From NCBI RefSeq assembly GCF_019774615.1, contig NZ_CP081497.1, positions 2,170,001-2,234,000 on the forward strand: 64,000 nt of DNA, in the 5' to 3' direction. The notes under the pieces are model-generated. The model was not told where the DNA came from. It saw nothing but the letters and a program-made list of their open reading frames with translations, and did not search any database. Positions 15,407 through 64,000 of this stretch are shown here, in pieces (the first letter of the stretch is position 1; each line of letters begins with the position of its first letter). Source of the stretch: Streptomyces sp. BHT-5-2. GTDB lineage: Bacteria > Actinomycetota > Actinomycetes > Streptomycetales > Streptomycetaceae. The position numbers were made by a program, and so were the translations under genes.

Positions 15407-15409
15407 TCC

Positions 15410-23793: not shown

Positions 23794-23899
23794 ACGCGCC
23801 GCGCACGCGCCGGCGAACACCGCGGCCCGCCAACGCAGCGCCGCACCCCGGCCGGGGACCTCAACCACCCACACTGCACTCGGAATCGAGGACCCCAAC

Positions 23900-38899: not shown

Positions 38900-38902
38900 G
38901 GC

Positions 38903-39097: not shown

Positions 39098-39135
39098 GAC
39101 TGCATTACCTCTTCGGTTTTGTGCGTTTTCTGGGC

Positions 39136-40035
39136 TCAAGTGGCGGACAGCACGTGGGCGAGGGCGGGGTATCCGATCAGCAACAGGAAGGCGGCGAACA
39201 GTCCGACCACGGGCAGCGACATCTGCTCGGTGGCCGCCTGCGCCGCCCCGTCGGCCTCGGAGATCCTGCGCCGCCGCATCGCCCGCGCCTTCGCCCCCAG
39301 CGAGCCCCGGACCTTGGCCCCCTCGCTGCCCGCAAGGCTCAGCGTCGAGGCGAGCTCCACCAGGTCGCTGACGCCCAGCTGCCGACCGAGTTCGCCCAGG
39401 TGAGTCCACGGGCTGGTGCGGGTGAGCTGCGCGACGTGCAGGGCGTGCCGCAGGGCGCCGGCTGCCCAGCCCTGCGGTGCGGCGACGGCCTGTGTCAGGG
39501 CTTGTTGGACGCCCGCGCCGCCGGCCAGCGCGATCACAGTCAGGTCCAGGACGAGGCTGAGGGTGTGCTGCATCTCGCGGCGCCGCTGCTGCGCCTGCTT
39601 GCGCAGACCGAGGTCGGGAACGAAGAACAGCGCTGCCGCAAGGGCCAGACAGCCAGACAGCGGCACCCACCACCCCGCCGCGACATCCACCCCGAGGCGC
39701 AGGAGCAGCACAACGACCCAAGGCGCGATGAGCCCGGTCATTGCACAGGTGGCCTTGCCCGCCAGATGCGTTTCCTCGTCCGTGCCACAGACTGCGAGGT
39801 CCGCCCGCAAGGACTTCGTGGGGAAGCCGAACGCCCGCACCAACGGCACTGCACGCCGCCCCAACCGGGTTGCCCACTCCATCTCCTGCGCGCCCCGCGC
39901 CGACGAAGGCACAGGCTCCACAGGGGCGTTGAGTGCGGTCAGGACATCGGCGAGCGCGGGCCGGGGAGGACGCAGCCCGTAGACAACAGCGGTCGCCCCG
40001 GCGCCGAGGAGCGCCCCGAGCAGCATGACAATCAC
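39136..40035 (-). CDS. tadC: TadC-like type II/IV secretion F-domain protein
   Basis: 299 residues from GTG 40035, GTGA overlap with tadB. Membrane helices at the N-terminus (MLLGALLGAGATAVVYGL), around 115 and 150, and at the end (LPVVGLFAAFLLLIGYPALAHV) flank the cytoplasmic T2SSF core (LSLVLDLTVIALAGGAGVQQALTQA). This is the platform protein of Tad pili, working with TadB and the ATPase TadA. Confidence 0.8.
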   Translation of the reverse strand: MIVMLLGALLGAGATAVVYGLRPPRPALADVLTALNAPVEPVPSSARGAQEMEWATRLGRRAVPLVRAFGFPTKSLRADLAVCGTDEETHLAGKATCAMTGLIAPWVVVLLLRLGVDVAAGWWVPLSGCLALAAALFFVPDLGLRKQAQQRRREMQHTLSLVLDLTVIALAGGAGVQQALTQAVAAPQGWAAGALRHALHVAQLTRTSPWTHLGELGRQLGVSDLVELASTLSLAGSEGAKVRGSLGAKARAMRRRRISEADGAAQAATEQMSLPVVGLFAAFLLLIGYPALAHVLSAT

Positions 40036-40943
40036 GGTCGACCTCCCGGTGCCGGACCCGTCCCGGCGACGGCTGGGGTGATCAGGCGGACGGGGTCGTC
40101 GATGCGGCCGATCGCAGACAGGTAGGTGAAGCTGGCCGCGAACAGTCCGCCCACCGCTGCCAGGACCAGCTGCCCAGTGAACGTGTTGAAGGGATCCAGG
40201 TACGGGCGGTTGAAGACCACCATGCCCACCGCCATCCCCAACGTGACGATGACGGTGACCCGCACCCCGGTCCGTACGCTCGCGCGACCGGCGTCGATGC
40301 GCTGCCGCATGGCCACCTGCTCACGTACCGACTCCGCCAGCTCACCCAGCAGCGGCGCCAACTGCCCGGCCTGCTGTTCGGCTGCCATCACCAGCGCCGA
40401 CACGACCACATCCGCCAGCGCATCATCCACGTCCGCGGCGAACGCCCTCAGGGCGACGGGAAGGGACTGCCCCGACCGGACGGCGACAGCCAGCCGCTGC
40501 ATCTCCGGCTCAAGGGCGGCCGGCGCGATGTCGGCGGTCGCCAATACTGCTTGCTCCAGGCCGGCCGCGGCGGAGAGGGTGTCGCGCAGCATCTCCGTCC
40601 ATGCGGCCAGCGCCTCCATCCGCTCCGTACGCAGGGCCGCCGCCCGGTCCGGGCCCAGCAGCCCAGGCAACGTCAGCCCGGCGACCGCGGTCAGTACCGC
40701 CGCCACCGGCCAGCCCGTCAAGGCGCCCACGACCACTGCGACCGTCACCGCGATCGCGAAGCGCCGCGAGGTCCAGTCCGCAGGCAGCCGCCCAAGCAGT
40801 CGTCGTCCGAGCCCCACCTGCTCCTCGCGCACGGTGCGTCGTACGGCGCCGTAGCCGATCGCCACCAGCCCCAAACCGCACACCGTTCCACAAGCAACCG
40901 CCACCGCCGTCACCGTGCCGGGACCCCAGTTGACGGTGGTCAT
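40032..40943 (-). CDS. tadB: TadB-like type II/IV secretion F-domain protein
   Basis: 303 residues from ATG 40943, ATGA overlap with the ATPase gene. N-terminal helix VTAVAVACGTVCGLGLVAIGYGAV, a pair of helices near 70-100, F-domain MLRDTLSAAAGLEQAVLATADIAP and QQAGQLAPLLGELAESVREQVAMRQRID, then C-terminal helices. Inner-membrane platform partner of TadC. Confidence 0.8.
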   Translation of the reverse strand: MTTVNWGPGTVTAVAVACGTVCGLGLVAIGYGAVRRTVREEQVGLGRRLLGRLPADWTSRRFAIAVTVAVVVGALTGWPVAAVLTAVAGLTLPGLLGPDRAAALRTERMEALAAWTEMLRDTLSAAAGLEQAVLATADIAPAALEPEMQRLAVAVRSGQSLPVALRAFAADVDDALADVVVSALVMAAEQQAGQLAPLLGELAESVREQVAMRQRIDAGRASVRTGVRVTVIVTLGMAVGMVVFNRPYLDPFNTFTGQLVLAAVGGLFAASFTYLSAIGRIDDPVRLITPAVAGTGPAPGGRP

Positions 40944-42292
40944 CTGGCCGCTCCCCACCATGGTGCCTCGGTGACCTGGGGCTCCAGCCCGGCCGCGACC
41001 AGATCGTTGAGAGTCTCCGTCCGCAACGGAGTCGCGGGAACCGCTCTGCCGTCCGAGCCGGGACGGTAGACCTCGTTCGAGACGATCTGCGCCCCCTCAG
41101 CATCGACGACCTCCCGCACCGAATCGATCACCCGCCGCCCTGCCGCATCCCAGCCCAGATGCACAACGAAGTGCACCGCGGAGGCCACCATCAGGTTCGT
41201 CGCCTCCAACGACAACCGCTCCGGCGCCTGAGCTGCGTAGGAGGCAAGTTTGGTGAACACCCCGCGCGAAGTGGAGGCGTGGATGGTGGACAGGGAGCCG
41301 TCGTTGCCTTGCGACATGGCGTTGCACATCGGGATGACCTCAGCACCGCGAATCTCCCCGACGATGACCCGGTCCGGTGACATCCGCAGCCCCCAACGCA
41401 CCAGCTCCGCCTGGTCGATACCACCCTGCCCCTCGATATTCGGCTCCCGCGCCTGCATCGCCACCACATTCGGATGCGCCACCGGATCGGCATCCAGACC
41501 GAGCTCGAAAGTGTCCTCGATCGTCACCAACCGCTCCATCGGCGGAATCTCGTGCGCGAAGGCCCGCAGCACGGTGGTCTTGCCGACATTGGTCCCGCCG
41601 CCGATCACGATGTTCTTCCGCGCCCGCACCAGGGCAGTCAGGAACGCCGCCAGTTGCTGGTCACAGACTCCCAGCCGGACCAGCTCGGCCATCGAGGCGG
41701 CCGGGAAGCGGTGGCGGCGGATCGTCAGCGACACCCGACCGGTCACCGCCATCACCGCGAAAAGCCTCGACCCATCGGGGAGTTGAAGGTTCAGCCGGGG
41801 CATCCCTCGGTCGAAGCGACGTTCCTCGTCGCCTGTACTGGCCGCGAGGGTGCGCACGAGTTCCACCAGCTCAGCGTCAGAGGCCGCCACGGCACTCTCG
41901 CGGCGCCACTGCCCGGCCGCGTCCTTGACCCAGACGACGTCGCAGCCGTTGATGCAGATGTTCTCCAGCGTGGTGTCCGCCAGCAGCCGCTCCAGGCGCC
42001 CCGTTCCGAACAGCGCATCCGTGACCGCCTGGGTGACCCGTTCCTCGACGACCGCATCGACGACCCTGCTGCCGTAGGAGAGGGCCAGGCGGCGCTGCGC
42101 TCCCAATTCCTCGGCAAGTAGGCGATCCACGGTGGTCCGACGCGCCGCCTCGCTCTCCGCCGGCAGCCCCGCAGCCTCCCTCTCACCGGCATACTCCGCC
42201 AGACGCGCCGCCACCCGCTGCCGTACCAGCAACACCAGGTCCTGCTCGCCTTGTGCCGGGACCACGCCCGGCGGCATCAATGTCTCGCCCAC
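40940..42292 (-). CDS. tadA: TadA/CpaF-type pilus assembly ATPase
   Basis: 450 residues from GTG 42292. N-terminal helical domain, then the CpaF pattern LLADTTLENICINGCDVVWV. Walker A is VIGGGTNVGKTTVLRAF (about residue 240), Asp box ERLVTIEDTFELGL, Walker B RMSPDRVIVGEIRGAEV, His box GSLSTIHASTSRGVFTKL. It supplies energy for pilus extension. It overlaps cpaE-like upstream by 16 bp. Confidence 0.9.
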   Translation of the reverse strand: MGETLMPPGVVPAQGEQDLVLLVRQRVAARLAEYAGEREAAGLPAESEAARRTTVDRLLAEELGAQRRLALSYGSRVVDAVVEERVTQAVTDALFGTGRLERLLADTTLENICINGCDVVWVKDAAGQWRRESAVAASDAELVELVRTLAASTGDEERRFDRGMPRLNLQLPDGSRLFAVMAVTGRVSLTIRRHRFPAASMAELVRLGVCDQQLAAFLTALVRARKNIVIGGGTNVGKTTVLRAFAHEIPPMERLVTIEDTFELGLDADPVAHPNVVAMQAREPNIEGQGGIDQAELVRWGLRMSPDRVIVGEIRGAEVIPMCNAMSQGNDGSLSTIHASTSRGVFTKLASYAAQAPERLSLEATNLMVASAVHFVVHLGWDAAGRRVIDSVREVVDAEGAQIVSNEVYRPGSDGRAVPATPLRTETLNDLVAAGLEPQVTEAPWWGAAR

Positions 42293-43101
42293 GAGGGCAC
42301 CCCCTCATCACCCGTGACCGGGACCAGACGCCGCTGCATCTCGGCATCCACCACCGTGGCCTTCTGCTCCTGGCAGTCGGGAAGCTGCCGGGCCAGCTTG
42401 CAGGTTGCGGCCATGAGCGGCGTCACTCGGAAGCCGGTCGTCCGCAGGCGTCCCGCGCGCCGCCGGTTCATCACGGCTACGGTCTTGGTATCCCACGGCA
42501 GGAAGACCACCTGCTCGATGGCGAGCGACTGCGCGATCTCATCTGATGGATACGGACACGGGCCCACGATGGCCAGCGTCAACCGCTCGCCATACGCTTC
42601 CGCCTTCAGCCCGTACGCGGATACATGCGTCAGTGGCTCCGCGCCACCCCGCGCCACCAGGACCACCTGATCAGCGGCCTCTAGTAGTGGCTCGACATCG
42701 TGACCGATCCGCCCGACGTCCAGCAACACCGTGCCCCGGTCGCCCTCCCCACCCAGCAGCACCCGCCGCCCGCCTTCACCGGCCAGCAACCGCACCGCCT
42801 CCGTGCACGGGCCGCGCCCCGGCACCGCAGCCACCACCCGCACACCGAAGGGAAGTTCACTCACCGCACCCAGCAAGGACCCCGGATACGGCTTCCCCAC
42901 CGCGGCCGCCACGTCCAACAACGAAGGCGTCGGCGGTAGCCCGAAGCGCATCATCAGGTCCCCACCGGACCCGTCCGCCTCCACCATCACCGGCCGAACC
43001 CCACCATCCGCCTCAGACGGCCACGCGACAGCCAACGCCAACGCCACCGTCGTCACCCCCGGCGCACCCGAGACCGACCCGACCACCACCAAACGCCTCA
43101 C
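42277..43101 (-). CDS. CpaE/TadZ-like MinD-family protein with degenerate P-loop
   Basis: 274 residues. The fold pattern is SIMIBI/ParA-like: RRLVVVGSVSGAPGVTTVALALAVAW, PVMVEADGSGGDLMMRFGL, GTVLLDVGRIGHDVEPLLEAADQVVLVARGG. In the P-loop the sequence GAPGVTT replaces GGVGKTT, so the catalytic lysine is absent. It may bind nucleotide without hydrolysis or act as a polar localisation factor for the pilus. Overlaps tadA by 16 bp and the SAF gene by 4 bp. Confidence 0.75.
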   Translation of the reverse strand: MRRLVVVGSVSGAPGVTTVALALAVAWPSEADGGVRPVMVEADGSGGDLMMRFGLPPTPSLLDVAAAVGKPYPGSLLGAVSELPFGVRVVAAVPGRGPCTEAVRLLAGEGGRRVLLGGEGDRGTVLLDVGRIGHDVEPLLEAADQVVLVARGGAEPLTHVSAYGLKAEAYGERLTLAIVGPCPYPSDEIAQSLAIEQVVFLPWDTKTVAVMNRRRAGRLRTTGFRVTPLMAATCKLARQLPDCQEQKATVVDAEMQRRLVPVTGDEGVPSWARH

Positions 43102-43799
43102 GGAGCCTCACGCCCCTCGGCCGGCAGTACCACCACACGCGGATGCTCCAGCTGCGCCGCCCGCTTCGCAGCCCCGGTCTCCACCAGCACCGTCACCACC
43201 CGTGGCCCGCCCGACGACTCCGGCGCCCGCACCCCCGTCACCATCCCCATCACCGCAGCGGACGCCTGGTCCCCGTCGGCCTGCGGTGCACCGCCTCCAG
43301 TTGGTCCAGGCAGCACCGCCACGCGTTCTCCGCGAGAGAGCTCCGGCGGCGCCCCGCCCGGCTCCACCGCCAGCGACACCTGAGAAGAGCCCTTCGGCGG
43401 AAAGACGACGGGCGTCCCCACCTGCCCGGGCGCCAACAACGCACCGGCCACCAACGGCACCTTCACCCTCCGCCCGACAGCCGTGCCCCGATCAGCCACC
43501 GGCACGACGCCCGCCTCCGCAGCAACTTCCACCACCCGCAGGTCAGCCGATTGCAGCACCCGGCCCGCCGGCACATCGCGCGCCAGCATCAGCACCCGGT
43601 CCCTGTGCCCCACCACGTTGGCGACCATCGTGAAGCCGACCGCCGAGACCACCACCGCCCCCAGGCCCGCCCACACCCAGCCCAGTCGACGCCGCCGACC
43701 ACCGGTCACAAGCGGCTTCTGTTCCGGCCCTGACTGGCGCGCCCCCGGCACACCGGCCCCAGCACTCCTGGGGACTGAAGAAGACAAGGAAGTACCCAC
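43098..43799 (-). CDS. CpaB/RcpC-like SAF-domain pilus protein
   Basis: 233 residues. One membrane helix (LGWVWAGLGAVVVSAVGFTMVANVV) then an extracytoplasmic SAF domain (MLARDVPAGRVLQSADLRVVEV ... AVGRRVKVPLVAGALLAPGQVG), typical of CpaB. A C-terminal region VVTVLVETGAAKRAAQLEH follows. First Tad-machinery gene of the apparent operon; it probably helps assemble or anchor the pilus at the wall. Confidence 0.75.
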   Translation of the reverse strand: MGTSLSSSVPRSAGAGVPGARQSGPEQKPLVTGGRRRRLGWVWAGLGAVVVSAVGFTMVANVVGHRDRVLMLARDVPAGRVLQSADLRVVEVAAEAGVVPVADRGTAVGRRVKVPLVAGALLAPGQVGTPVVFPPKGSSQVSLAVEPGGAPPELSRGERVAVLPGPTGGGAPQADGDQASAAVMGMVTGVRAPESSGGPRVVTVLVETGAAKRAAQLEHPRVVVLPAEGREAP

Positions 43800-50839: not shown

Positions 50840-51301
50840 GTGACCTTCGAGGAAGAGTGGGCCGAGCTCAAGCGTGAGACCTCGGTCCGCATGAACCTGG
50901 CCGGCACAGGCGGAGAGAGCTGGAACTCGGGCAGCCAGGGCACCCTTCGTTCTTCCCGGGAGGTATGGCACAAGGGGGCCCAGGCCGTGGGATCGCTTCA
51001 GACGAACCTGAAGGCCGCGCTAAGGGAGTTGGAGAGTAAGCACGATACGGCCGGGAGTGGTACCAGCGGAGTCGACGGCCTGCGCAGTGCGGCCTCACAT
51101 CTCAGTGCCTATCAGTCATGGCAACGGCGGCTGGATCTCGTAAGCCGGGAGTGCGAAGAGCTGAGGGACAAGTTGCAGAAGTCCGGTGACGCCTTCTACA
51201 AGAGTGACGCTGAGATCGGCGAAGCCTTCCGCGAGCAGAAGACCGTGCCGACGAAGAGCGCCAGTGCCGTTCGCTCTCACGAGGACCGGAGGGCACCCTG
51301 A
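50840..51301 (+). CDS. Helical WXG/LXG-chaperone-like protein
   Basis: 153 residues from GTG 50840 (AGGGGGCGGA upstream). Entirely helical with heptad-like stretches: VWHKGAQAVGSLQTNLKAALRELESKH, and WQRRLDLVSRECEELRDKLQKSGDAFYKSDAEIGEAF. Resembles the small helical partners encoded before type VII substrates. It shares a base with the next start (TGATG), indicating tight coupling. Likely binds the N-terminal helical domain of the hydrolase; this is inference from operon form. Confidence 0.55.
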   Translation: MTFEEEWAELKRETSVRMNLAGTGGESWNSGSQGTLRSSREVWHKGAQAVGSLQTNLKAALRELESKHDTAGSGTSGVDGLRSAASHLSAYQSWQRRLDLVSRECEELRDKLQKSGDAFYKSDAEIGEAFREQKTVPTKSASAVRSHEDRRAP

Positions 51302-53094
51302 TGGTGAACTTCTCACAGCTGCGGACCCTCAAGCCATCAGAGTTCGAGGAAGCCGCTGACGGCTGGCACAAGGTAAGCAGCGCCGCGGGCGAGGCCAAAG
51401 ACCGGGTCGACAACGAGATCGTTGCGACGTTGCAGCACCACCTGGACGGCGCGGGGCAGAAGTCGGCACTGGTGCGCCTGAGACGACTCAGCCGCAACTT
51501 CCAGTACACCCAGGCGGAAAGTGGTCTGATCCGTACCGCGCTGAACGGACTGGCCTCAGAGCTACGTGCCGCACAGAAGAAGTTGAACGACGCGGTGGCG
51601 GATGCCGAAGCGGAGAAGTTCACGGTCAAACCCGACGGCGCGGTCCATTGGGTTTCTCAGCGAGAAAGGGTTCCGTTCAATCCTGAGCACACCTCCTGGG
51701 CGGGTGGTCCCGGGAGCACCATCACCTCCGATCCCCAACAGGCCAAGGCTCAGGCATATGCGGACCGTATTGGTGCGGCCATCCAGGACGCCAACGAGGC
51801 GGACGCCCACTACTCTCAGACTCTGGATCGCCTCAAGGCGCACAACAACCTCGACGTCACGACTTCAGACTGGGCCGACGCCCAGCAGGACATGAGGTCT
51901 CTCCAGAAATCCGCGGGCAAGTACCTGCGGCGCGATGGCATACCCACGGGCAAGACATCTACCGAGAACGTCAAGTGGTGGAGGAGCCTTTCTTCCGAGG
52001 AGCAGGCCGACTACGTCGCCCTGTTCCCCGCTGCGATTGGCGCGTTGGACGGTCTGCCTTCAACTGTCCGCGATGATGCGAACCGCATCGTTCTGGACGA
52101 GACGCAAGCACGTGTACAACTGGAACTCGATCAGCTTGGCCCAGAACCTGCGGAGTATGACCCGGGTGACGGGCATTCCGGCCCGTACGTCAGCAAGGGC
52201 TGGGAGGAGTGGCACAGGAAGCATGACCGCCTGACCGCCCAACTCAAAGGAATGAACGCGATCCAAGAACGCCTTGACCAGACCGGCACGGATGGCCTTC
52301 CTCCTGCCTATCTCCTCGGCTTCAACGCTGAAGGGAAAGGGCGAGCTATCGTCGCCACGGGAAACCCCGACACCGCCAAAAACACCGCGGTCTATGTTCC
52401 GGGTACCGGCTCCAAACTGGAGGGAGCTAAAGGCGACATCGGCCGCATGACCGACCTTTGGTATGACAGTCAGCAGTTCCCAGGTGGCGGAGAGGATTTG
52501 TCCACGGTTACCTGGATTGGCTACGACGCACCGCAGAGCGCCTTTCCTGGCGACAAGGGCGACGTATGGCCTGAAGCAGCATCAGTGGATTGGGCGAATG
52601 ACGCAGCACCCCACCTCGATCGCTTCATGGACGGGGTACAGGTGGCCCAAGGAGGATCGAACGAGAGTCACACCACACTCATAGGCCATAGCTACGGTTC
52701 GACAGTCATCGGGGACGCTTCACTCAGGGGTCGGATCGCCGCCGACGACATCCTGGTGGCGGGAAGCCCCGGCATGCTGGTTCCTGAAGCAGGCGACCTG
52801 GGAATCGGCGCAGACCATGTTTGGTCGGAAGCCGCGTCACCCGACAAGGACCAGGTTCCCCAAGGCGGCAAGGCTGTGGGCCTGGGGGGTTGGAAGTGGG
52901 GAGCGCAGTACTGGCACGGAATTCCCTACTCTTACGGGCCTCAGGAAGTCGTTCCGTCAGACGAGGCATTTGGAGCTCACCGGATGTCCACTGACTCGGA
53001 AGATCACAGCGGATACTGGAATCGCGCCTCGACAAGTCTATATAACCAGGCAGCTGTCGTCACCGGAAACTATGACAAGGTCAAATATGACTAG
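51301..53094 (+). CDS. DUF1023-type alpha/beta hydrolase with helical N-terminal domain (type VII substrate candidate)
   Basis: 597 residues. Residues 1-210 are helical with a WXG-like start (FEEAADGWHKVSSAAGEAKD). Residues about 330-590 form an alpha/beta hydrolase: TAVYVPGTGSKLEG, WIGYDAP, nucleophile Ser464 in LIGHSYGSTVIG, ILVAGSPGM, and His569 in SEDHSGYW. Matches the actinobacterial DUF1023 family. No signal peptide, consistent with export by a type VII system, whose genes lie 2.3 kb away. Followed by a lipoprotein gene overlapping by 8 bp. A lipase/esterase activity is suggested by fold only. Confidence 0.75.
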   Translation: MVNFSQLRTLKPSEFEEAADGWHKVSSAAGEAKDRVDNEIVATLQHHLDGAGQKSALVRLRRLSRNFQYTQAESGLIRTALNGLASELRAAQKKLNDAVADAEAEKFTVKPDGAVHWVSQRERVPFNPEHTSWAGGPGSTITSDPQQAKAQAYADRIGAAIQDANEADAHYSQTLDRLKAHNNLDVTTSDWADAQQDMRSLQKSAGKYLRRDGIPTGKTSTENVKWWRSLSSEEQADYVALFPAAIGALDGLPSTVRDDANRIVLDETQARVQLELDQLGPEPAEYDPGDGHSGPYVSKGWEEWHRKHDRLTAQLKGMNAIQERLDQTGTDGLPPAYLLGFNAEGKGRAIVATGNPDTAKNTAVYVPGTGSKLEGAKGDIGRMTDLWYDSQQFPGGGEDLSTVTWIGYDAPQSAFPGDKGDVWPEAASVDWANDAAPHLDRFMDGVQVAQGGSNESHTTLIGHSYGSTVIGDASLRGRIAADDILVAGSPGMLVPEAGDLGIGADHVWSEAASPDKDQVPQGGKAVGLGGWKWGAQYWHGIPYSYGPQEVVPSDEAFGAHRMSTDSEDHSGYWNRASTSLYNQAAVVTGNYDKVKYD

Positions 53095-53656
53095 TCGGCG
53101 CCCCGCGAGGGCCCAACACCGTTCGCGCCCCTTTCCGCGGGTTGCCGCGACCGTTGCTGCGCTCCTAATTACCACGATGACTGGATGCTCTGACGTGCAT
53201 AAAGATCAGGATGACGCGCCTGTACGAGAGATCTCCAGCGCAAAGGAAGACGGAAAGAGGCTATCGAGTCAAATCTTCCAGATGATGCAGCTCGCAAACG
53301 CAAAAACTACGGAGCCGGGCCCTCATGCCGGGTTGTGCGAGGGGAAGGACCCCGATCACTACTACATGATCCGCCATCCGTGGGCCGCCTATGGTGTGAC
53401 TTTCCAGGAGTTGCAGCAGGCCATGGAGCGGCTCAAGAAAGATATGCCAGAGAAAGGCTGGAAGGTCGTCAAGTACGGCCCCGACACCAGCCCAGCCAAG
53501 ACCTTGGAGCTCATTGCAGACTCCACCCAAAAGGATTTCTCTGTAGCGATTCATCTTCTCGATGAAAGGAAGAAGCAAAGGGAATCCAGGATCGCTGTCA
53601 GCCTGGCATCCAGGTGCTATAAGACTCCAAAAGGGAAGACGGTTTCTGCATCCTGA
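53087..53656 (+). CDS. Predicted lipoprotein, immunity candidate
   Basis: 189 residues from ATG 53087, overlapping the hydrolase stop by 8 bp. Basic N-terminus, hydrophobic segment VAATVAALLITTMTGC with lipobox-like MTGC. Mature part: SSQIFQMMQLANAKTTEPG, GVTFQELQQAMERLKKDMPEKGWKVVKYGPD, and KDFSVAIHLLDERKKQRESRIAVSLASRCY. Two further Cys (LCEGKD, SRCYK). Surface location and overlap with a secreted hydrolase suggest it protects the producer. The sequence itself does not show this. Confidence 0.65.
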   Translation: MTSRRPARAQHRSRPFPRVAATVAALLITTMTGCSDVHKDQDDAPVREISSAKEDGKRLSSQIFQMMQLANAKTTEPGPHAGLCEGKDPDHYYMIRHPWAAYGVTFQELQQAMERLKKDMPEKGWKVVKYGPDTSPAKTLELIADSTQKDFSVAIHLLDERKKQRESRIAVSLASRCYKTPKGKTVSAS

Positions 53657-53755: not shown

Positions 53756-54484
53756 ATGGCCGACGTAGAAGAGGTCGAGGTCGTTGTCCATCACGAGCGC
53801 GCTTCCCTGCGCGTCGGCACTGTGTTCCTGAAAGGCCGATGCTGGTCAGACTCGCACCGGCGTCGTGGTCGAGGCGATGGCTATGGCGCTGATCCCGACT
53901 CCGGAGCTCCTGTGGCGGAAACCGCCCGTGCTCGCACTCGCCGCCGTCTCCGGGGCGGCACTCGGCCGCCTAGGCAAGCCGTCGATCGCGCCGTTGGCGG
54001 CGTGGTGCCGCCTCACGGATGCTGCACGACGCGCCACTGCCGCCATGGCTCGGTTTGAGTCTCGACGAGATCGCATCGCACCTCGACGGCGAGGCGAATG
54101 CGAGTGGCTCGTCACTAACGGCGTCCTTGCCACGCCCGTGGACACGCAGAACCGACGGGTTGTCGAGGCTGCGCTCAGACCATGGACACCGGTGTTCACG
54201 CACGGGGACCTGCAGGTCACCCACGTGTTCGTCGACGGTGACGAGATCACCAGCGTGGTCGACTGGTCCGAGGCGGACCCGGGTGATGCCCTGTTCGGCC
54301 TCGCCACCAAACACTCGGACACGAGGAGCACCTTGACGACTACATCGCCGGCTACGGCACCGACGTCGACCTAGACGCGATCCGCGCCTGGTGGTCGTTG
54401 CGAAGCCTGCGGGCGGTCCGCTGGCTGGTCGAGCACGGCTTCGACCCGTCGCACGAGGTCGCCCTGCTGAGATCCCGGCTGTGA
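53756..54484 (+). pseudogene. Aminoglycoside-phosphotransferase-family pseudogene, at least four frameshifts
   Basis: Reading across frames rebuilds one APH-type kinase. MADVEEVEVVVHHERASLRVG comes first (53756 on), then AGQTRTGVVVEAMAMALIPTPELLW, then LHDAPLPPWLGLSLDEIASHLDGE (near 54020). ECEWLVTNGVL with the catalytic loop FTHGDLQVTHVFVDGDEITSVVDWSEADPGD follows, and finally LGHEEHLDDYIAGYGTDVDLD to WLVEHGFDPSH, ending at TGA 54484. Each join needs a one- or two-base shift, so it cannot be translated whole. Confidence 0.8.
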
Positions 54485-55433: not shown

Positions 55434-55730
55434 CTACTGGAAGAAGCCCGCCGCCTTGCGGTCCGTCGCCCGGTAGTCGGCACTGCCCGTGCGGATCTTG
55501 GCGGACACCTCGTGCAGCGTGCTCTGGATGTGGCTCGCACGGGCGTTCCACTGCCGTTCTGCGGCCTGGAACGCCTGGTGCGCCTCGCCCTCCCAGGACT
55601 CGGAGACGCGCTTGACCGCACCCCAGATTTTGTCCAGCTCGGCCTGCAGTTCCTTTGCGGCCCGCTCGATGTCGGCGGCTGTCTGCTCAAGAGCACCATA
55701 CGTAACCCGAAGGTTCTGGTCGCCGGCCAT
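55434..55730 (-). CDS. WXG100 protein (EsxA/EsxB-like)
   Basis: 98 residues from ATG 55730 with GGGGAG upstream. Helix-turn-helix hairpin with WEG at SESWEGEAHQAFQAAERQW, and a C-terminal YRATD matching the YxxxD/E type VII export signal (SADYRATDRKAAGFFQ). Typical size. Last gene of the type VII group on this strand; partner is probably the WXG protein 84 bp upstream. Confidence 0.85.
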   Translation of the reverse strand: MAGDQNLRVTYGALEQTAADIERAAKELQAELDKIWGAVKRVSESWEGEAHQAFQAAERQWNARASHIQSTLHEVSAKIRTGSADYRATDRKAAGFFQ

Positions 55731-55813: not shown

Positions 55814-56176
55814 CTAGTAGTTGCTGATGCCGCTGGCAGCGCCAGGGTCCAGGCGCCCGCCGGCCGCGCCACCGTTGACGTCAATGCCCCGGAAGCTGGA
55901 CAGCACCTCGGAGTCATTGGCGTCGCTGGTGACGCTGGTGCGGGCCACGGCGTCGTTGATGCCGTCGAGCATCCGGCGCAGCGCGGCGTGATCCTCATTG
56001 AGTGCGTTCTGCGCCTGCCGGAAGGCGCTCGCGCCCTGTCCCGTCCACGCGGTCTCGACTGCCGCAATAGCGTTCACCAGCGTCCGCAGCTGCGCCGACA
56101 TCGACTGGCTGCCACTCTGGATCTCGTTCTTGAGCTTCTCGATCTCCGCATACGTAAGTGCGGTGTTCCCTGCCAT
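55814..56176 (-). CDS. WXG100 protein with extended C-terminus
   Basis: 120 residues. WTG turn in VETAWTGQGASAFRQAQNAL between two long helices, then ~30 extra residues rich in Gly/Asp/Ser (GIDVNGGAAGGRLDPGAASG) beyond the usual 100. No YxxxD/E at the end, so it probably is exported as the partner of the 98-residue WXG protein that carries the signal. The 147-bp spacer to 56323 holds no gene; it is AT-richer (near 56225-56250), fitting a promoter for the pair. Confidence 0.8.
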   Translation of the reverse strand: MAGNTALTYAEIEKLKNEIQSGSQSMSAQLRTLVNAIAAVETAWTGQGASAFRQAQNALNEDHAALRRMLDGINDAVARTSVTSDANDSEVLSSFRGIDVNGGAAGGRLDPGAASGISNY

Positions 56177-56323: not shown

Positions 56324-57523
56324 TCATCGCGACGCTCTACGACGCCGAGCGATCACGAGTCCGCCGATGGCTATCACCCCAGCGGCTGTGGCGATTCCGG
56401 CAATGACCGGCCATGTCACAAAGTCGCCGTCCTTCGCCTGACTCGATGGTTTCTGCGGCGTCCCGGTGGTGTCCTTTGCCGTCCCTGGGTGCGGCGCCTC
56501 TGATGGCTCAGCAGTGCTGTGTGCCGCAACCAGCGGATTGGCGTCGGCAAGGCCGGGGTCGCCCTCCTTGTCCAGCAAGACCTTGCGCGGGCGGACGATC
56601 CCGTAGCCGAGGTACTCACTCGGGACCTTGCCATCCTTCGGCTTGCCAGCGGTCTCCATCATGACGCGCAGGACCTGATTGTTAGTCCAATCCCGGTGGG
56701 CCGACCAGATCAAAGCCGCTGAGGCAGAGACGATGGCTGTAGCGTCGCTGGTCCCGTCCTCAATGCAGCGCCGGAGTTCCTTCGTGCACCGAGTGGGAAT
56801 ACGGACACCCGGCGCCGCAAGTGCTACCTGAGGCCCATGGGTTGAGAATTCTGCTACTTTCAGATCCTTGTCCACGGCCCCGACTCCGACAACCCCAGGG
56901 AGGCTTGCGGGGTAGGTAGGGGCGTTGCCCCGGTCTCCATCATTTCCCGTGCTGGAAAAGACTAGACTCCCCTTCTTGTTCGCATAGTCAACTGCCGGCT
57001 GCAGGACGGCTTTGTTTCCCTCGCTGACTGATCCACCCTGGGAGATATTGATGACCTTCGCACCCTGATCCGCGGCATAACGGATGGATTCGGCCATATT
57101 GACAGCCCAATTCCCATCGATGCTCTTAACGGGAAGGATCTTCGACCCTGGTGCCAGCCCCCAAGGACCGTCCCCGCTCCGCCTGCCAGCGATGATCATC
57201 GCCATGCTCGTGCCATGGCCTTCGTCATCATGGTTGACGCCGCCTCCTTGGCCGGTGAAGTCCTTTCCTGGCAGCAGCTGACCGCGCAGCTCGGGTACGG
57301 AGCTGTCAACGCCGCTGTCGATCACAGCGACGGTGACGCCTTCTCCGGTGCTCAGCTGCCACATGCGCTCGGCTTGCATCGCATCCAGATGCCACTGGCG
57401 CGACCTCATGTCCTCCGCAAGAGCTGCCGGTGCGAGCAAGCCCGGACACAGGACCGAGAGGCAGACGAGCACCGTAAGCCGAAGCTGAATCCTCCGCCCC
57501 ACGCGAGTTGCCGCATGAGTCAC
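56324..57523 (-). CDS. Mycosin-like S8 serine protease, membrane-anchored (copy 1)
   Basis: 399 residues from GTG 57523 (AGGAGGA upstream). Signal peptide LTVLVCLSVLCPGLLAPAALAE. Catalytic triad motifs: VTVAVIDSGVD (Asp), DDEGHGTSMAMIIAG (His) and IEDGTSDATAIVSASAA (Ser, GTSDATA instead of GTSFAAP). C-terminal Pro/Thr linker then a membrane helix VTWPVIAGIATAAGVIAIGGLVIARRR. This is the MycP layout: an extracytoplasmic subtilase needed for ESX secretion. A second mycosin is encoded at 59949-61265. Confidence 0.85.
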   Translation of the reverse strand: MTHAATRVGRRIQLRLTVLVCLSVLCPGLLAPAALAEDMRSRQWHLDAMQAERMWQLSTGEGVTVAVIDSGVDSSVPELRGQLLPGKDFTGQGGGVNHDDEGHGTSMAMIIAGRRSGDGPWGLAPGSKILPVKSIDGNWAVNMAESIRYAADQGAKVINISQGGSVSEGNKAVLQPAVDYANKKGSLVFSSTGNDGDRGNAPTYPASLPGVVGVGAVDKDLKVAEFSTHGPQVALAAPGVRIPTRCTKELRRCIEDGTSDATAIVSASAALIWSAHRDWTNNQVLRVMMETAGKPKDGKVPSEYLGYGIVRPRKVLLDKEGDPGLADANPLVAAHSTAEPSEAPHPGTAKDTTGTPQKPSSQAKDGDFVTWPVIAGIATAAGVIAIGGLVIARRRRASR

Positions 57524-57563
57524 AGTGCTGTCTCCTCCTGTCCGTTGGACAACCACGCCAGCG

Positions 57564-59246
57564 TCATTCGATCACCGGTGGCACAATCGAACCGTCCTGC
57601 GCCGTCCAGGCCTCGCCGTCTTCATAGAGATAGTCCGGCCGCTGAGCGGAGCCGCGCCGCCGCCTCTGGAGGTACGACGGCGTCCCCGGCACAATGCCAC
57701 CTGAGGCATTGCCCCGTGCCAGTCCAGATCCGCCGGGCGTGAAGTCAGCTGCCCTGTCACGCGGCGCCTGTGCTCGGCCGGCCGCTCCTCCCAGATCGGA
57801 CGCCGAGCCCCGCCCTGTGGCGGTCGGCGTTTCGGGAGCAGGCCCTTCAACAGCGCCTCCGCCGCTGCTCCTCCCCATCGGGGAACCCTGCGCCCCGGAA
57901 CTCTGTTCGCCGCCTACCACCGGTCCGCCGGGCGAGGCTCCCACTGTGCCGCCAGGCTCGTATGCAAAGCGACGCCCAGGAACACTCTGGGGCATGCCCC
58001 TACTCGTGCTGCTTCCGGGATAGCTACGTCCCATCGCACTACGGTCCTCGCTCATAGCCAGACCACGGGGCGCACTGGCAGCCTCTCCATGGGGAGGGGC
58101 TGGGCGCTGTCCAGCACTTGCGGTGCCTTCGCTGATCGCCCTGTTCCCAGGGGTGGGAGGATTCCCTCCCGCGTTCACCGGCCTGGACGGGAGCACTCCG
58201 CGTTCCTCGCCTATGGCTCTCCCGTCCGGCAGCCCTGGGCGTCCAGTAGCGGTGCCAGCACGCTGAGACGTTGCGTCGACGATGCCGCCTCCCGCGGCGC
58301 TGCGGGACAGCTTCTTGGCCGTGCCAGGGCGAGCGGCATTCGACTGCGGGTCCGGTGTCGCCCTTCCATGATCCGCAGGGGGCTTCGCTGTCCCAGGGGT
58401 CGTTCGCGGGCCAGGCATGACAGGACCAGGGGGGTTTCCAGAGCTACCGGAGTGGACCGGAACGGTGCTTCCGTGCGACGTCGTTGCATCGGGTAGAACC
58501 GGGGTCGTGGAGTTAACCGACGTGCCCACCTGCTTGTCCTGCTGCACGCCGCCAACAGGCGTGCGGGACTCCGCTACGCGCGGTTCACCACCGCTACTCC
58601 CGGTTGAGGACTCGGTCCCTGCGCCGCCTGCGCCATTCGCGGACTCCCTGCCAGTCGGCTGGTCCAAGATTTCGAAGCGTCGGTCATGCCGTGCGCTTCC
58701 AGGCGGATCCGGCACAAACCCCGACGCCGGCTTGAAGTTGGGCGGCTCCTGGCTCTCGATCGTCTGCTGGGCCGTGCGGTAGTAGGAGGCCAGCCGGTTC
58801 ATGGCCGTCACCGCCGCTTCGCGGTCCGGGTCCGTCATCAGGGGAGCTCCGGTTGCGCCGCGCGCCGTAGGCGTTGCTGCGCTGCCTATCTGAACGGCGT
58901 TGTTCTGTTTCGGCTGGGGCATCGATTTCGCCTCCCACAACGCCGTTCCGGCGTCCGAGAGGGCGTTGCCGGTGGTGGAGGCGAAGTGGGCAAGTTTGTG
59001 GCTCTGCTTGACGGTGTCGTGGCTCCATTCGCGGAAGGCGTCGGCGCCTTCGCCCTCCCACTGCACACGTTCGACGTGCGCCTTGAGCTCGGTGGCGATC
59101 CGCTCGATCTCCTTGCCTGCCTGGGTCAGGCTGGCGCCGGTGAACGAGATCTCCGTGTGGTCCGCGCCGGCCACCATGTCGTACAGGGTCTGGTGTGTTG
59201 CGTTCTCGAAGTTGCTGCTGCCGGACGAGCTGGAGTTCCCCGCCAT
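57564..59246 (-). CDS. WXG-domain protein with long disordered Pro/Gly tail (PPE/EspB-like)
   Basis: 560 residues. Residues ~30-110 are a WXG100-like helical hairpin (LKAHVERVQWEGEGADAFREW). A second helical segment (MTDPDREAAVTAMNRLASYYRTAQQTIES) follows near 140-170. Residues ~175-525 are Gly/Pro/Ser/Arg-rich and disordered. The end DYLYEDGEAWTAQDGSIVPPVIE is ordered-looking and acidic. Likely a type VII substrate or cell-envelope factor; family members sit beside mycosins in Streptomyces ESX loci. Confidence 0.65.
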   Translation of the reverse strand: MAGNSSSSGSSNFENATHQTLYDMVAGADHTEISFTGASLTQAGKEIERIATELKAHVERVQWEGEGADAFREWSHDTVKQSHKLAHFASTTGNALSDAGTALWEAKSMPQPKQNNAVQIGSAATPTARGATGAPLMTDPDREAAVTAMNRLASYYRTAQQTIESQEPPNFKPASGFVPDPPGSARHDRRFEILDQPTGRESANGAGGAGTESSTGSSGGEPRVAESRTPVGGVQQDKQVGTSVNSTTPVLPDATTSHGSTVPVHSGSSGNPPGPVMPGPRTTPGTAKPPADHGRATPDPQSNAARPGTAKKLSRSAAGGGIVDATSQRAGTATGRPGLPDGRAIGEERGVLPSRPVNAGGNPPTPGNRAISEGTASAGQRPAPPHGEAASAPRGLAMSEDRSAMGRSYPGSSTSRGMPQSVPGRRFAYEPGGTVGASPGGPVVGGEQSSGAQGSPMGRSSGGGAVEGPAPETPTATGRGSASDLGGAAGRAQAPRDRAADFTPGGSGLARGNASGGIVPGTPSYLQRRRRGSAQRPDYLYEDGEAWTAQDGSIVPPVIE

Positions 59247-59948: not shown

Positions 59949-61265
59949 CTACTTATTGACGCGGCGTGCCTTCGGGCGTGCGCCCCGCTTGCGCGCGTCT
60001 CGCCAGACGACGGCCGCGCCCGTGATGACCGCGACGGCGACGCCGCCCGCTCCCAGGCCGTATGTCGCGTAGCGCTCCGTCCGCTCCTGTGGGCTCTCGC
60101 CGTCGGGCCAGGCGGTGGGGTCGGGTGGTGTGGCCTTGGTCAGGCCGTTGGTCGCGGTGGGGTGGTCGATGGGGTGGGTGTCGTCGGTGAGGGCGCGTAC
60201 CGGGTCTACGACGCCCCAGCCGACGAAGGGGTCTTGGCCGTTGACGGTGCGTTCTGCGGTCTGCTCGATCTGGGCGACGATCTGGTACTCCTTCCAGTCT
60301 GGGTGCTTGGCTTTGAGGAGGGCGGCGACGCCGGCGACGTAGGGGGCGGAGAAGCTGGTGCCGTTGTCGACGCACTGGCCGCCCTTGGGGACGGTGGAGA
60401 CCATGTCCACGCCGGGGGCGGCAACTCCGATGAAGGCGCCGCTTTGGGAGAAGGGGGCGCGTTCGTTGTTGCGGTCGGAGGAGGCGACGGCCAGCACCCC
60501 GTCGTACGCGGCCGGGTAGGTGTCCTTGAGCTGGCCGTCGAGGCCGTCGTTACCTGCCGAGGCTACGACGACGATGTTCTTGTGCCGGGCTTCCTGGACA
60601 GCGGCCGCGAGGTCGGAGTTGGGGGAGAGGGGCTTGGTGGTGTCCTGGGAGATGTTGATGACGTCGGCGTCGGCGGCGATGGCCTTGCGGATGGCCTGGG
60701 CCAGCGTGGCGGCGTTGCCGCTGCCCTTCTCGTCGTTCTGGCGGAGCGGGATGATGGTGGCTTCGGGGGCGAGGCCGATGAAGCCGGTGCCCGCGTGCGG
60801 GCGGGCGGCGATGATGCCGGCGACCTTGGTGCCGTGGCCCACCGGGTCGTAGGTGCCGTCCGTCGGCGCCTTCGGATCTCCCGCTGTGCCGTTCCCGGCG
60901 TCCTTGGTGTTGTGCAGGAAGTCCCAGCCGCTCTTGGTGTCGACGGCCTGGGTCAGCTGTGGGTTGGTGTTGTCGACGCCGGTGTCGATGACGGCGACGC
61001 GTACCGGGCGGCCGTGCGCGTCCCGGCCCTTGGTGTCCTGCCACAGCCGGTCGAAGACGATGCGTTGCAGCGCCCAGGGGCGTTCCTTGATCTGTTGCTT
61101 CATGGGGAAGGTGCAGACGCCGTTCCCCTGAGGGACCGGCATCACATCCTCCCCGTCCGCGGCGTGGGCGACCTCGGCTGGAGACACGAGTGCAATGCTC
61201 CCGATCAGTGCCATGAGCAGGGTGGTGCCTGCGGCCCATGCGGCTGGTGTGCTTCTCCTCCTCAC
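59949..61265 (-). CDS. mycP: Mycosin (MycP-like S8 protease), membrane-anchored (copy 2)
   Basis: 438 residues. Signal peptide TTLLMALIGSIALVSPAEVAHAAD. Triad motifs: VRVAVIDTGVD (Asp), DPVGHGTKVAGIIAA (His), DNGTSFSAPYVAGVAALL (Ser). Asn region ASAGNDG also present. C-terminal anchor YGLGAGGVAVAVITGAAVVWRDARKR. Two Cys (GVCTFPMK; GGQCVDNGTS) likely form a disulfide, as in mycosins. Placed directly after eccB, it is the more conventional MycP of the locus. Confidence 0.85.
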   Translation of the reverse strand: MRRRSTPAAWAAGTTLLMALIGSIALVSPAEVAHAADGEDVMPVPQGNGVCTFPMKQQIKERPWALQRIVFDRLWQDTKGRDAHGRPVRVAVIDTGVDNTNPQLTQAVDTKSGWDFLHNTKDAGNGTAGDPKAPTDGTYDPVGHGTKVAGIIAARPHAGTGFIGLAPEATIIPLRQNDEKGSGNAATLAQAIRKAIAADADVINISQDTTKPLSPNSDLAAAVQEARHKNIVVVASAGNDGLDGQLKDTYPAAYDGVLAVASSDRNNERAPFSQSGAFIGVAAPGVDMVSTVPKGGQCVDNGTSFSAPYVAGVAALLKAKHPDWKEYQIVAQIEQTAERTVNGQDPFVGWGVVDPVRALTDDTHPIDHPTATNGLTKATPPDPTAWPDGESPQERTERYATYGLGAGGVAVAVITGAAVVWRDARKRGARPKARRVNK

Positions 61266-61282: not shown

Positions 61283-62851
61283 TTAGGAGCCCTGGGGCTG
61301 ACGGGCGGCGTTCGCATCCAGCCGGGGCCCCATCGGGAGGAACTGCGACCAGTTCGCCGGCACCAGCACCGGCTTGATGTCCTTGTAACCGAGGAGGATC
61401 TGCGCCCGATTGGTCTCCTGCGAACCTTGGCCGGATTGCTGCTCCTTGGCCGGAGCCGTTCCTGCGGTGCCGATACCTGATGGCTTGGCGCTGCTGTCGT
61501 TATTCGACTGGACGCCGTAGCGCAGACCCGTGTCCGTGACGAGGAAATGCGCCCCGGAGACGGCGTCTCCCGGCTGGATCTGCTTGTAGAACAAGCCCGT
61601 TCCGGGGGTGACGTACGCGCTGGTGCCGCCGTTGGCGATCTGTTGGGGGAAATCCGTTCCGGCCCACGTGCTCAGCTCCGTACCACCGGTCTTCGACACC
61701 GCGCGCAGCACACTGCAGACCGTGCCCCGGTCACCCTGAGCCGTGGCCGTGTTGACCTGCTCGGTCATCTCCTGCGGCCACTGCTTCTCGGCGAACAGCT
61801 GCTGCGCCTGCGGAGTAAAGGACTGCGCGTCCACCTCCGTAGGCCGGTTGAGTTGCTGCAGCGGGGCCGTCTGGCGGGAGAACAGGAGAAGTCTGGCCAC
61901 GAAGTCGGAGACGGGGACGACCTTGCCCGGGAGGACGACGTAGTGCTGGGTGCCGTCGCCGGTGGTCGCGCGCAGCACCATGCCGACGCGGTTTTCGCGT
62001 GCGCTGAGCCCCTTGACGTTCGCGGGCTGGGCGACGGTGCCGGCGGGCAGGGTGGGGAAGGCGATCGGTGTGCCGTCGTGGAAGGTGGCGAGCCAGTCCT
62101 TGGTGACCTGCTGGGGCTGCCGGCTGCCCACCAGGGCACGCAGTAGCAGTTCGGTGTCACTGCCGCCGTCGATGAGGTACTTGGTGCCCTTCGGATCGAT
62201 CAGATAGCGGGGCCCACCGGATTCTCCGGATTCGCCGGAGCCCTTGGACTCTTGGACGTAGAGGGCCTGGCCTCCGTGGAGCCGGCCTGGTCCCTCCACC
62301 TTGTCCGCGTCGCGGTCGGCGAAGAGGAAGGTGGCCTTCTGTACGGACCTGCCGTTGTTGCCGGGTTGTTCGCAGACCGCCCATCGCTTGCTCTTCGCCG
62401 CGTCGGCGGCCTCCGGGAGGCGGTCGGGGGCGTAGGGGATGCCCAGGGTCGGGCCGTGCTGGAGTTTTCCGTTGTCCAGCTCGCTCTCGTCGACCTTGAG
62501 GACGTCGGACCGGTCGGGTTTGACGAGCAGTCGGGCGGAGGCCATGTTCAGGACGGGATGCAGCTGCCTCTTGCCGCCCGTCTCCATGACCACGTACAAG
62601 GTGGCGGATTTGCTGCCCAGGATGACGTGCGCGCCCGGGGTGTCCCAGCCCTTGGGGGCCTTGGGGCGGAACATGCCCCAGGCGCCGAATCCGGCCAGGA
62701 CCAGGGCGGCGACGACCAGGCCGGGCAGCACCGCGCGCAGCGGGTTCGGGGCGCCCTCGTCGGTACGGTCAGGGGAGGGCTGCAGGAACGCGGCCACCAG
62801 CCGTTTCTTGGCGAAGGTGTAGCCGTTGAGCTCGTCCCGCCGTGATGCCAT
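61283..62851 (-). CDS. eccB: Type VII secretion core protein EccB
   Basis: 522 residues. Starts MASRRDELNGYTFAKKRLVAAFLQPSPD, the EccB N-terminal pattern, then one membrane helix (AVLPGLVVAALVLAGFGAWGMF). The large extracytoplasmic part has the family markers GPRYLIDPKGTKYLIDG, VNTATAQGDRGTVCSVL and DTGLRYGVQSN, with two Cys (AVCEQPG, TVCSVL). EccB is a structural subunit of the ESX membrane complex. Ends 17 bp before mycP and follows eccD. Confidence 0.9.
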   Translation of the reverse strand: MASRRDELNGYTFAKKRLVAAFLQPSPDRTDEGAPNPLRAVLPGLVVAALVLAGFGAWGMFRPKAPKGWDTPGAHVILGSKSATLYVVMETGGKRQLHPVLNMASARLLVKPDRSDVLKVDESELDNGKLQHGPTLGIPYAPDRLPEAADAAKSKRWAVCEQPGNNGRSVQKATFLFADRDADKVEGPGRLHGGQALYVQESKGSGESGESGGPRYLIDPKGTKYLIDGGSDTELLLRALVGSRQPQQVTKDWLATFHDGTPIAFPTLPAGTVAQPANVKGLSARENRVGMVLRATTGDGTQHYVVLPGKVVPVSDFVARLLLFSRQTAPLQQLNRPTEVDAQSFTPQAQQLFAEKQWPQEMTEQVNTATAQGDRGTVCSVLRAVSKTGGTELSTWAGTDFPQQIANGGTSAYVTPGTGLFYKQIQPGDAVSGAHFLVTDTGLRYGVQSNNDSSAKPSGIGTAGTAPAKEQQSGQGSQETNRAQILLGYKDIKPVLVPANWSQFLPMGPRLDANAARQPQGS

Positions 62852-62967: not shown

Positions 62968-64000
62968 TCAACCGCTCGTCATACTCCGCGCCAGGCTGTA
63001 CAGGTCCAGGACCGCCAGACACAGCGGCATCAGGGACAGCAGCAGGAATCCATCGGCGAGATCGAGCACCCGGCCCCAGAACGGCGTCAGCCCCTTCTTC
63101 GGCACCGTCAGCGCAACCGTCGTCACCAGCGCCACCGCGCCGATCACCACCAGCGCCAGCCACAGCGTACGCAGATCCAGTGGAGTGCGGTCGCCTGCAA
63201 GGAAGTCGTTCAGCATCCCGGTGGGCGGGTTGAAGGCGACGCCCAGCGTGAGGAGGGAGAGTGCGGCCAGGCCGGCGACGACCGCGCAGGCGACCTGGAC
63301 GGTGTAGCGGAAGAGCCGGGCACGCAGCAGCGTCGCCAGGCCGGTGGCGAGGGCGAGGAGCTGCGCCCATGCGGAGTGGGTGAAGCCGAGGACGCCCGAA
63401 GCGCCGATGAGGACGGTGCAACAGCCGCCGAGGAGCCCCAGCAGCAGCTCATGCCCGCGGCGGGCCTGGGCGGCGATGCGCTCCTGGTCGACGGGTTCCA
63501 GGCCGACGGGCTCCTCAGCACCCCTTAGTTCCGCCCCCGCCCCGGCCTCCCGCTCTTCGCTCAGGCTGCGCGGAGTGGCGTATCCGATGGGCAGCCGGGC
63601 CAGGCGCGTGGCCAGCCCTGGCAGAAAGGCCATGACACCGATGACGACGGGTGCGCAGACGGCTGCGGCCTGGGCGGCCGTCGCCTCGCTGACGATGGCG
63701 AGGAAGGCGGCCAGGGTGGCGACGGCCGCGGCGAACGTGGCAGCGATGAACGGCGCATCACCGGATGGCGACAGCGCAACCAGGGCAACGGAGACGACCA
63801 GCATGGCGACACAGCCCAGCAGGAACTGCAGCCGCCCGGACCCGTGACCGGCATCCGGACCGACGATCCCCGAACCCGCGCACAGCACCACTGGGAGCGC
63901 GCCCAGCCCCAGTGCGACGGCGGACGGCTGGTCCCCGTAGACCCGGGCCCGGACCCCCGCGAACGCGGCCAACAGCACACCGGCCGTGCCGGCGATCACA
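62968..64000 (-). CDS. eccD: Type VII secretion core protein EccD, N-terminus cut by window edge
   Basis: At least 343 residues, the frame still open at base 64000. Nine or more membrane helices, with the cytoplasmic loop PIGYATPRSLSEEREAGAG between helices typical of EccD, and C-terminal VLDLADGFLLLSLMPLCLAVLDLYSLARSMTSG. The ubiquitin-like N-terminal domain is outside the window. EccD forms the ESX channel vestibule. EccC is not in the window and is expected further right. Confidence 0.85.
   Translation of the reverse strand, partial: VIAGTAGVLLAAFAGVRARVYGDQPSAVALGLGALPVVLCAGSGIVGPDAGHGSGRLQFLLGCVAMLVVSVALVALSPSGDAPFIAATFAAAVATLAAFLAIVSEATAAQAAAVCAPVVIGVMAFLPGLATRLARLPIGYATPRSLSEEREAGAGAELRGAEEPVGLEPVDQERIAAQARRGHELLLGLLGGCCTVLIGASGVLGFTHSAWAQLLALATGLATLLRARLFRYTVQVACAVVAGLAALSLLTLGVAFNPPTGMLNDFLAGDRTPLDLRTLWLALVVIGAVALVTTVALTVPKKGLTPFWGRVLDLADGFLLLSLMPLCLAVLDLYSLARSMTSG

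Follow-up and report, generated by a model that had tools for sequence, protein, structure and literature searches.

A three-gene operon beside an ESX locus of Streptomyces sp. BHT-5-2

The window analysed here is a stretch of 64,000 nucleotides from the 9.1-Mb genome of Streptomyces sp. BHT-5-2 (contig NZ_CP081497.1, positions 2,170,001 to 2,234,000). This study concerns an operon of three genes on its plus strand, which encode a small helper protein, a hydrolase and a lipoprotein and whose open reading frames (ORFs) overlap or abut at the positions annotated. The hydrolase matches PF06259 (DUF1023, Abhydrolase_8) with an E-value of 5e-27 and 95.1 bits, compared to a curated cut-off of 20.5, and is encoded by one of six PF06259 genes of the genome. 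A gap of 1.78 kb separates the operon from the nearest gene of an ESX locus, i.e. a locus of the type VII secretion system (T7SS), which is a WXG100 gene on the opposite strand with its stop at 55434. The initial annotation of this DNA had described the three overlapping genes, the helical N-terminus of the hydrolase, its residues Ser464 and His569 and a distance of 1.8 kb to the ESX genes, all of which was confirmed from the ORFs, a structural model and an alignment of homologues. The G+C content of the operon is 61%, that of the ESX genes 67% and that of the window 68%, and the low value of the operon suits a recent acquisition or exchange. The features of the operon are, in coordinates of the window:

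50840..51301, plus strand: helper, WXG100/EspC (PF10824)-like putative T7SS targeting partner, 153 amino acids (aa); GTG start, Trp94, family profile matches
51301..53094, plus strand: hydrolase, predicted effector, 597 aa; ATG start, PF06259, predicted fold
51301..51960, plus strand: putative N-terminal targeting region of the hydrolase, residues 1-220; helical, elsewhere fused to other C-termini
51961..52260, plus strand: exchange (recombination) zone, residues 221-320; the correlation with the helper drops and that with the lipoprotein climbs across it
52690..52692, plus strand: catalytic Ser464 in GHSYG; Ser in 99/99 homologues
52849..52851, plus strand: probable catalytic Asp517; Asp in 93/99 homologues at this column
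53005..53007, plus strand: catalytic His569; His in 99/99 homologues
53087..53656, plus strand: lipoprotein, predicted immunity protein, 189 aa; ATG start, lipobox TMTGC with Cys34, alpha/beta model

The hydrolase divides into a WXG/LXG-type helical region (residues 1 to about 220, hereafter N-module), the exchange zone (about 221-320), which holds the conserved segment WWRSLSSEE...GALDGLPSTVRDDANR (residues 226-262), and the PF06259 alpha/beta-hydrolase domain (about 331-597). An AlphaFold2 model with a mean predicted local distance difference test score (pLDDT) of 93 places a helix at residues 12-47, an L-D-G turn at 48-50 and a second helix at 51-104, followed by further helices; the turn of this helical hairpin reads W-x-G in distant members, and the Pfam LXG model found no significant match in the profile scans of these proteins. 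The GHSYG motif with Ser464 and the residue His569 are invariant in 99 homologues, and position 517 is an aspartate in 93 of them, with an aspartate somewhere in 511-521 in all 99. Ser464, Asp517 and His569 thus probably represent the alpha/beta-hydrolase triad predicted from alignment and model. When compared to known structures, the modelled catalytic domain comes closest to the B. subtilis lipase A (LipA; Z 14.3, 168 residues, root-mean-square deviation (rmsd) 2.8), followed by cutinases at about 13, and its predicted fold is lipase/cutinase-like. A hydrophobic signal-like stretch at the N-terminus, as judged by simple hydropathy, was found in none of the 99 hydrolases, and a Sec-exported esterase was rejected on this ground.

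By the same measure, a signal-like stretch is present in 1% of the helpers and in 93% of the lipoproteins. The helper carries a tryptophan (Trp94) that is invariant in 24 aligned homologues and likewise in the set of 99. Five of the 24 match PF10824 (best 5e-6) and four match WXG100 (best 8e-4), while the helper of the window itself reaches an E-value of 0.047 against WXG100 (PF06013), under the curated cut-off. Near its C-terminus it possesses the sequence F-xxx-D (F-YKS-D), which corresponds to the [Y/F]xxx[D/E] export motif of T7SSa, the ESX type of actinomycetes.

The lipobox motif is matched by 93 of 99 homologues of the lipoprotein. The lipoprotein has no family match in Pfam and NCBIfam, and a sequence search of the PDB returned nothing significant. 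Its AlphaFold2 model is an alpha/beta domain with a pLDDT above 95 across most of residues 51-180, resembling LppA (2v7s; Z 9.6, rmsd 4.8, 143 residues), DUF4853 (9.4) and DcrB (9.1), then the type VI secretion system (T6SS) adaptor SciW/EagT6 and, weakly, the T6SS immunity protein TplEi. Foldseek gave nothing below an E-value of 0.001 with this model, so that the fold assignments are based on VIA-align Z-scores of 9-10; the matches are tied and denote likeness of fold only. Lipoproteins of about double length (about 306-336 aa) occur at some loci (L053, L054, L055, L040 and L050); they look like two tandem domains and perhaps confer immunity to two alleles.

The operon is conserved across the genus

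We searched for relatives with the hydrolase alone, which yielded 80 named Streptomyces loci plus loci from further relatives, and identified the lipoprotein genes of these relatives by homology. After removal of identical copies, 116 unique hydrolase-matching ORFs remained, and a homologous lipoprotein lies downstream of 110 and a homologous small helper upstream of 103 of them. Of the unique homologues with a length of 500 aa or more, 108/109 are followed by the lipoprotein (114/120 before de-duplication), and the ORFs that deviate from the operon pattern are either fragments or members of a distant branch. Since 108/109 have the lipoprotein and 103/116 the helper, the layout is not due to chance, and a chance clustering of the three genes was rejected for an operon that is conserved genus-wide. 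Its spread is patchy: the hydrolase was detected in 26 of 61 relatives (E-value below 1e-30), several of which hold multiple copies, and copies also reside on linear Streptomyces plasmids.

Helper and lipoprotein co-vary with different halves of the hydrolase

We compared pairwise protein distances in 99 operons, treating the N-terminal half and the catalytic half of the hydrolase separately. The lipoprotein follows the catalytic half (correlation r 0.88; partial correlation 0.85 given the N-terminal half, as against 0.18 for the N-terminal half), and the helper follows the N-terminal half (r 0.90, partial 0.87, as against 0.10 for the catalytic half). Bootstrap intervals of the differences between correlations exclude zero, and the permutation p is 0.001. 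Along the hydrolase, the correlation with the helper stays at about 0.8 up to residue 220 and then goes down to about 0.45, whereas that with the lipoprotein is about 0.4-0.5 along the N-terminal region and reaches 0.7-0.8 from about residue 320. The values are flat within each half, with a step near residues 221-320; accordingly, the two ends of one and the same half correlate with 0.86 and 0.81, and adjacent pieces on either side of the zone with 0.50. The step indicates that helper plus N-terminal region on the one hand and catalytic domain plus lipoprotein on the other form two exchange units. This is exemplified by the pair L096/L041, in which the N-terminal halves are 92%, the C-terminal halves 55% and the lipoproteins 38% identical. 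Over all operons the mean distance is 0.71 for the lipoprotein versus 0.50 for the enzyme.

Leftover lipoproteins and alternative C-termini

At L080, L095 and L103 a further hydrolase is represented by a displaced C-terminal fragment behind the intact operon, followed by the lipoprotein that belongs to this fragment, and the same kind of displaced catalytic fragment with a lipoprotein was found at L203, L205, L206, L209 and L210. Extra tandem, divergent lipoproteins are present at more than ten loci. At L202, L204 and L208 a lipoprotein is present but no hydrolase was detected; at L201, all that remains of the hydrolase behind the helper are its first 11 residues, joined to the lipoprotein. 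No intact hydrolase of this clade without a lipoprotein was seen among the loci, except for the distant L070. Hence, the lipoprotein outlasts the hydrolase and not the converse, as predicted for a toxin and its antidote.

The N-module is also found in front of other C-termini. A plasmid-encoded protein of S. decoyicus shares 75% identity with a paralogue from its own genome (L039) over 342 aa, after which it continues with Tox-REase-2 (PF15646, 2e-9), and the gene downstream of this variant encodes a soluble protein of 125 aa without an N-terminal signal. Further N-modules are joined to Amidase_6/CHAP (L191, L193), to DUF6571 (L195) or to C-termini without a family match; most of these alternative proteins have a homologous helper upstream, and several are then followed by unrelated lipoproteins. 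The loci L181-L190 and L195-L200, in which N-module and upstream helper precede C-termini without a family match and in many cases then a lipoprotein or membrane protein, encode candidate new effector families as judged from their sequences.

These observations bear on the possibility that the hydrolase, once exported by type VII secretion, remodels the envelope of its own producer or scavenges lipids or polyesters, with the lipoprotein as its anchor, foldase or activator. Lipases can require dedicated foldases, and both the similarity of the catalytic domain to cutinases and secreted lipases and the fold of the lipoprotein, which resembles that of general lipoproteins of the LppA/DcrB/LpqN type, would suit such a role. 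However, an anchor or foldase ought not to persist once its enzyme is lost, as the lipoproteins of L201, L202, L204 and L208 do. The tandem divergent copies, the greater divergence of the lipoprotein than of the enzyme and the nuclease toxin that is joined to this N-module and has another partner count against such a role as well. We thus regard this explanation as improbable.

Association with type VII secretion

The following genes lie downstream of the operon in the window:

55434..55730, minus strand: WXG100 protein of the ESX locus; SWEG...YRATD, homologous WXG100 genes adjoin related operons
55814..56176, minus strand: WXG100 protein of the ESX locus; PF06013 4e-12
56324..57556, minus strand: mycosin-like subtilase, second of two; PF00082 5e-46
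57564..59246, minus strand: putative T7SS substrate, helical at the N-terminus, with a long tail of low complexity; weak PF21725 match (0.002)
59949..61265, minus strand: mycosin MycP-like subtilase; PF00082 3e-50
61283..62851, minus strand: EccB; PF05108 4e-77
62968..63999, minus strand: EccD, C-terminal part, runs past the end of the window

The EccC gene is located directly outside the window (contig G000:C2, about 2234733-2238716). In this genome, each of the three such operons has an EccB gene at a distance of about 8-13 kb, and EccB, EccC or EccD is encoded within 10 kb of the operon in 14 of the 80 named loci, as opposed to an expectation of well under 2%, which we estimated from one to two ESX loci per about 8 Mb. 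Among 121 Streptomyces genomes EccB is present in 109; 86 of the latter possess the N-module, compared to none of the 12 genomes lacking EccB (Fisher p 7e-8, relatedness ignored).

This distribution is relevant to the view that the genes form a housekeeping esterase operon whose proximity to ESX and WXG-like appearance are coincidental. In its favour, PF06259 is found in shorter stand-alone proteins as well, and most relatives lie away from ESX core genes. Nevertheless, the absence from all EccB-less genomes, the WXG, PPE and EspC profile matches among family members, the patchy multicopy distribution and the modular exchange of halves speak against a housekeeping function, which we consider very improbable.

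A second ESX locus of the same genome (G000:C1, about 322-333 kb; L040) encodes EccB and EccD proteins that are 94% and 93% identical to those of the window. Beside it lies a hydrolase operon as well, whose hydrolase is 43% identical to that of the window and whose lipoprotein comprises 336 aa; by these sequence comparisons, the second locus is a within-genome example of putative effector exchange beside a conserved machine. At this site beside the ESX WXG100 pair, the operon appears to be placed in both orientations with respect to the ESX genes (L050 and L040 versus the window and L071), and the flank of this pair looks like an exchange hot spot. The trio of mycosin, low-complexity putative substrate (57564-59246) and mycosin was also found near other operons.

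Comparison with known effector systems

In M. abscessus prophages (MW584173, MW584157) the same gene order is present, with a small WXG protein, a 'polymorphic toxin' and an 'LppA' lipoprotein. The corresponding paper predicts that these toxins are exported by T7SS with a WXG partner and that lipoproteins confer immunity in some cases; nowhere in its text is a hydrolase domain of the toxins named (PMC8092301). In our own profile scan, the WXG-bearing 'polymorphic toxin' has a PF06259 C-terminus (2.9e-25). It is about 30% identical to the Streptomyces hydrolase over the exchange zone and hydrolase domain only (query residues 222-592). The lipoproteins of both groups look related in a profile comparison (hhalign E-value 2.5e-5, probability 75%), and when the profile of the helper family was compared directly to the M. 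abscessus WXG protein, no significant similarity emerged. While the M. abscessus cassettes are borne by prophages, the Streptomyces operon is chromosomal and stands beside an ESX locus. Hence, this kind of system is already known from M. abscessus prophages, and its Streptomyces form is new and widespread. DUF1023/PF06259 was defined as an alpha/beta hydrolase, with no biological role attached (Zheng et al. 2005, via PMC11878206), and among the papers searched none assigns DUF1023 to T7SS effectors. The view taken in the initial annotation that no such assignment existed for DUF1023 proteins is nonetheless not quite right, given the names under which the prophage records list the PF06259 protein and its neighbour.

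The S. aureus system of TslA, TlaA1-TlaA2 and TilA combines a proven T7SS lipase toxin with small helical partners and lipoprotein immunity (PMC10730906), and it shares with the Streptomyces operon a lipase-like protein, one or more small helical partners and a lipoprotein. In TslA, however, the lipase comes first and the helical part last, and its host employs the T7SSb of Bacillota, whereas the Streptomyces protein is helical at residues 1-220 and has the hydrolase at 331-597. A reverse lipase toxin of the TslA type was rejected on this domain order, the sequences not having been compared. The parallel to the S. aureus toxin drawn in the initial annotation thus holds for the layout with lipoprotein immunity and fails for the domain order, which is the ordinary one with N-terminal targeting and not the reversed one of TslA.

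The LXG toxins of Bacillota have an upstream helper, a variable C-terminus, downstream immunity and strings of extra immunity genes (PMC9484751, PMC9600955). A helical N-terminal targeting region, an upstream helper, a variable C-terminus, a downstream gene for known or predicted immunity and extra copies of such a gene are common to these T7SSb toxins and the Streptomyces operon, unlike which they do not involve an actinomycete ESX (T7SSa) host and an EspC-like helper. Among actinomycetes, AaEAS of Amycolatopsis azurea is a T7SS-associated toxin with an LXG-type N-terminus, the C-terminal domain of which was shown to be toxic (PMC12691689). It likewise has a targeting factor upstream and a putative immunity gene downstream, but differs in that it carries an alarmone synthetase domain and acts in the cytoplasm.

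A probable polymorphic effector-immunity family of Streptomyces

The operon displays the features of polymorphic toxins, namely an N-module with varied C-termini, an upstream partner, a co-exchanged putative immunity gene, orphans and an occurrence restricted to genomes with T7SS. Judged from these comparisons of sequences, it most likely belongs to a Streptomyces family of polymorphic type VII (ESX/T7SSa) effector-immunity systems. In this family, the WXG/EspC-like helper would bind the helical WXG/LXG-type N-terminus of the hydrolase, and both would leave the cell together through the adjacent ESX or another ESX of the cell. The PF06259 domain would then attack an ester or acyl bond, probably of a membrane lipid, at the external side of the membrane of neighbouring bacteria, and the lipoprotein, anchored to the external side of the producer's own membrane, would bind the catalytic domain and thereby shield the producer and its kin. 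Secretion, helper pairing, lipid substrate, toxicity and binding are the steps that we infer. The initial annotation had proposed type VII export, a helper as partner and immunity by the lipoprotein, and this proposal gains support from the co-segregation of the halves, the pairs of fragment and lipoprotein, the nuclease swap and the absence from EccB-less genomes.

Several observations weigh against an assignment to such a family. In 66 of the 80 named loci no ESX core gene is present within 10 kb. The [Y/F]xxx[D/E] motif is strictly kept in only 29 of 99 helpers, with D/E retained in 95. Shorter PF06259 proteins without helper or lipoprotein exist (L037, L069, L070 and one in L110), and the PF06259 domain alone is therefore not to be read as a toxin. 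Physical linkage could partly explain the co-segregation by halves, although a simple decay of linkage is disfavoured because the correlation profile is step-shaped. Species are not independent, so that the Fisher and permutation values overstate the certainty. Finally, the lipase-like fold leaves the substrate unfixed.

With regard to the target, a membrane lipid is the most likely option, and we would give it about an even chance. As a variant of the effector-immunity explanation, with which its probability overlaps, the target could also be a peptidoglycan-linked ester, a polyketide or peptide ester or a surface protein, or the effector might be directed at a eukaryotic neighbour. The alpha/beta-hydrolase fold spans esterases, thioesterases and peptidases, Z-scores of about 13-14 are common to lipases, cutinases, feruloyl esterases and one thioesterase, and the Amidase_6/CHAP domains of other members hint at cell-wall targets. 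Yet the best fold matches are minimal lipases such as LipA, though many others are within about 1 Z, and a membrane-anchored antidote would fit a target at the membrane surface. We therefore treat a non-lipid target or a eukaryotic neighbour as a serious but less probable possibility.

For type VII effectors of Streptomyces, no role has to our knowledge been demonstrated so far. We slightly favour the broader reading that Streptomyces ESX serves mainly as a weapon against other bacteria, with a repertoire that extends over the genus and can be swapped, in which one targeting pair would deliver lipase-like, nuclease, amidase or other warheads and the antidote would match the compartment of the target, i.e. 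a lipoprotein for surface-acting hydrolases and a soluble protein for the nuclease. If true, this would give type VII secretion in Streptomyces a role, and the DUF1023 family would gain a specific and testable one. The exchange map marks where the warhead starts, and the shared N-module offers a route to many further effectors.

Other features of the window

Between the operon and the ESX genes lies a remnant of an APH (aminoglycoside-phosphotransferase)-like gene (53865-54374). The region from 7086 to 24844 encodes a large serine recombinase and PrgI, VirB4-like, TraD-like and NlpC/P60-SLT proteins and is, by its gene content, part of a predicted conjugative (type IV secretion) element. A Tad/Flp pilus-like cluster is located at 37612-43799, including a CpaF/TadA ATPase (40940-42292) and an SAF/CpaB protein (43098-43799).

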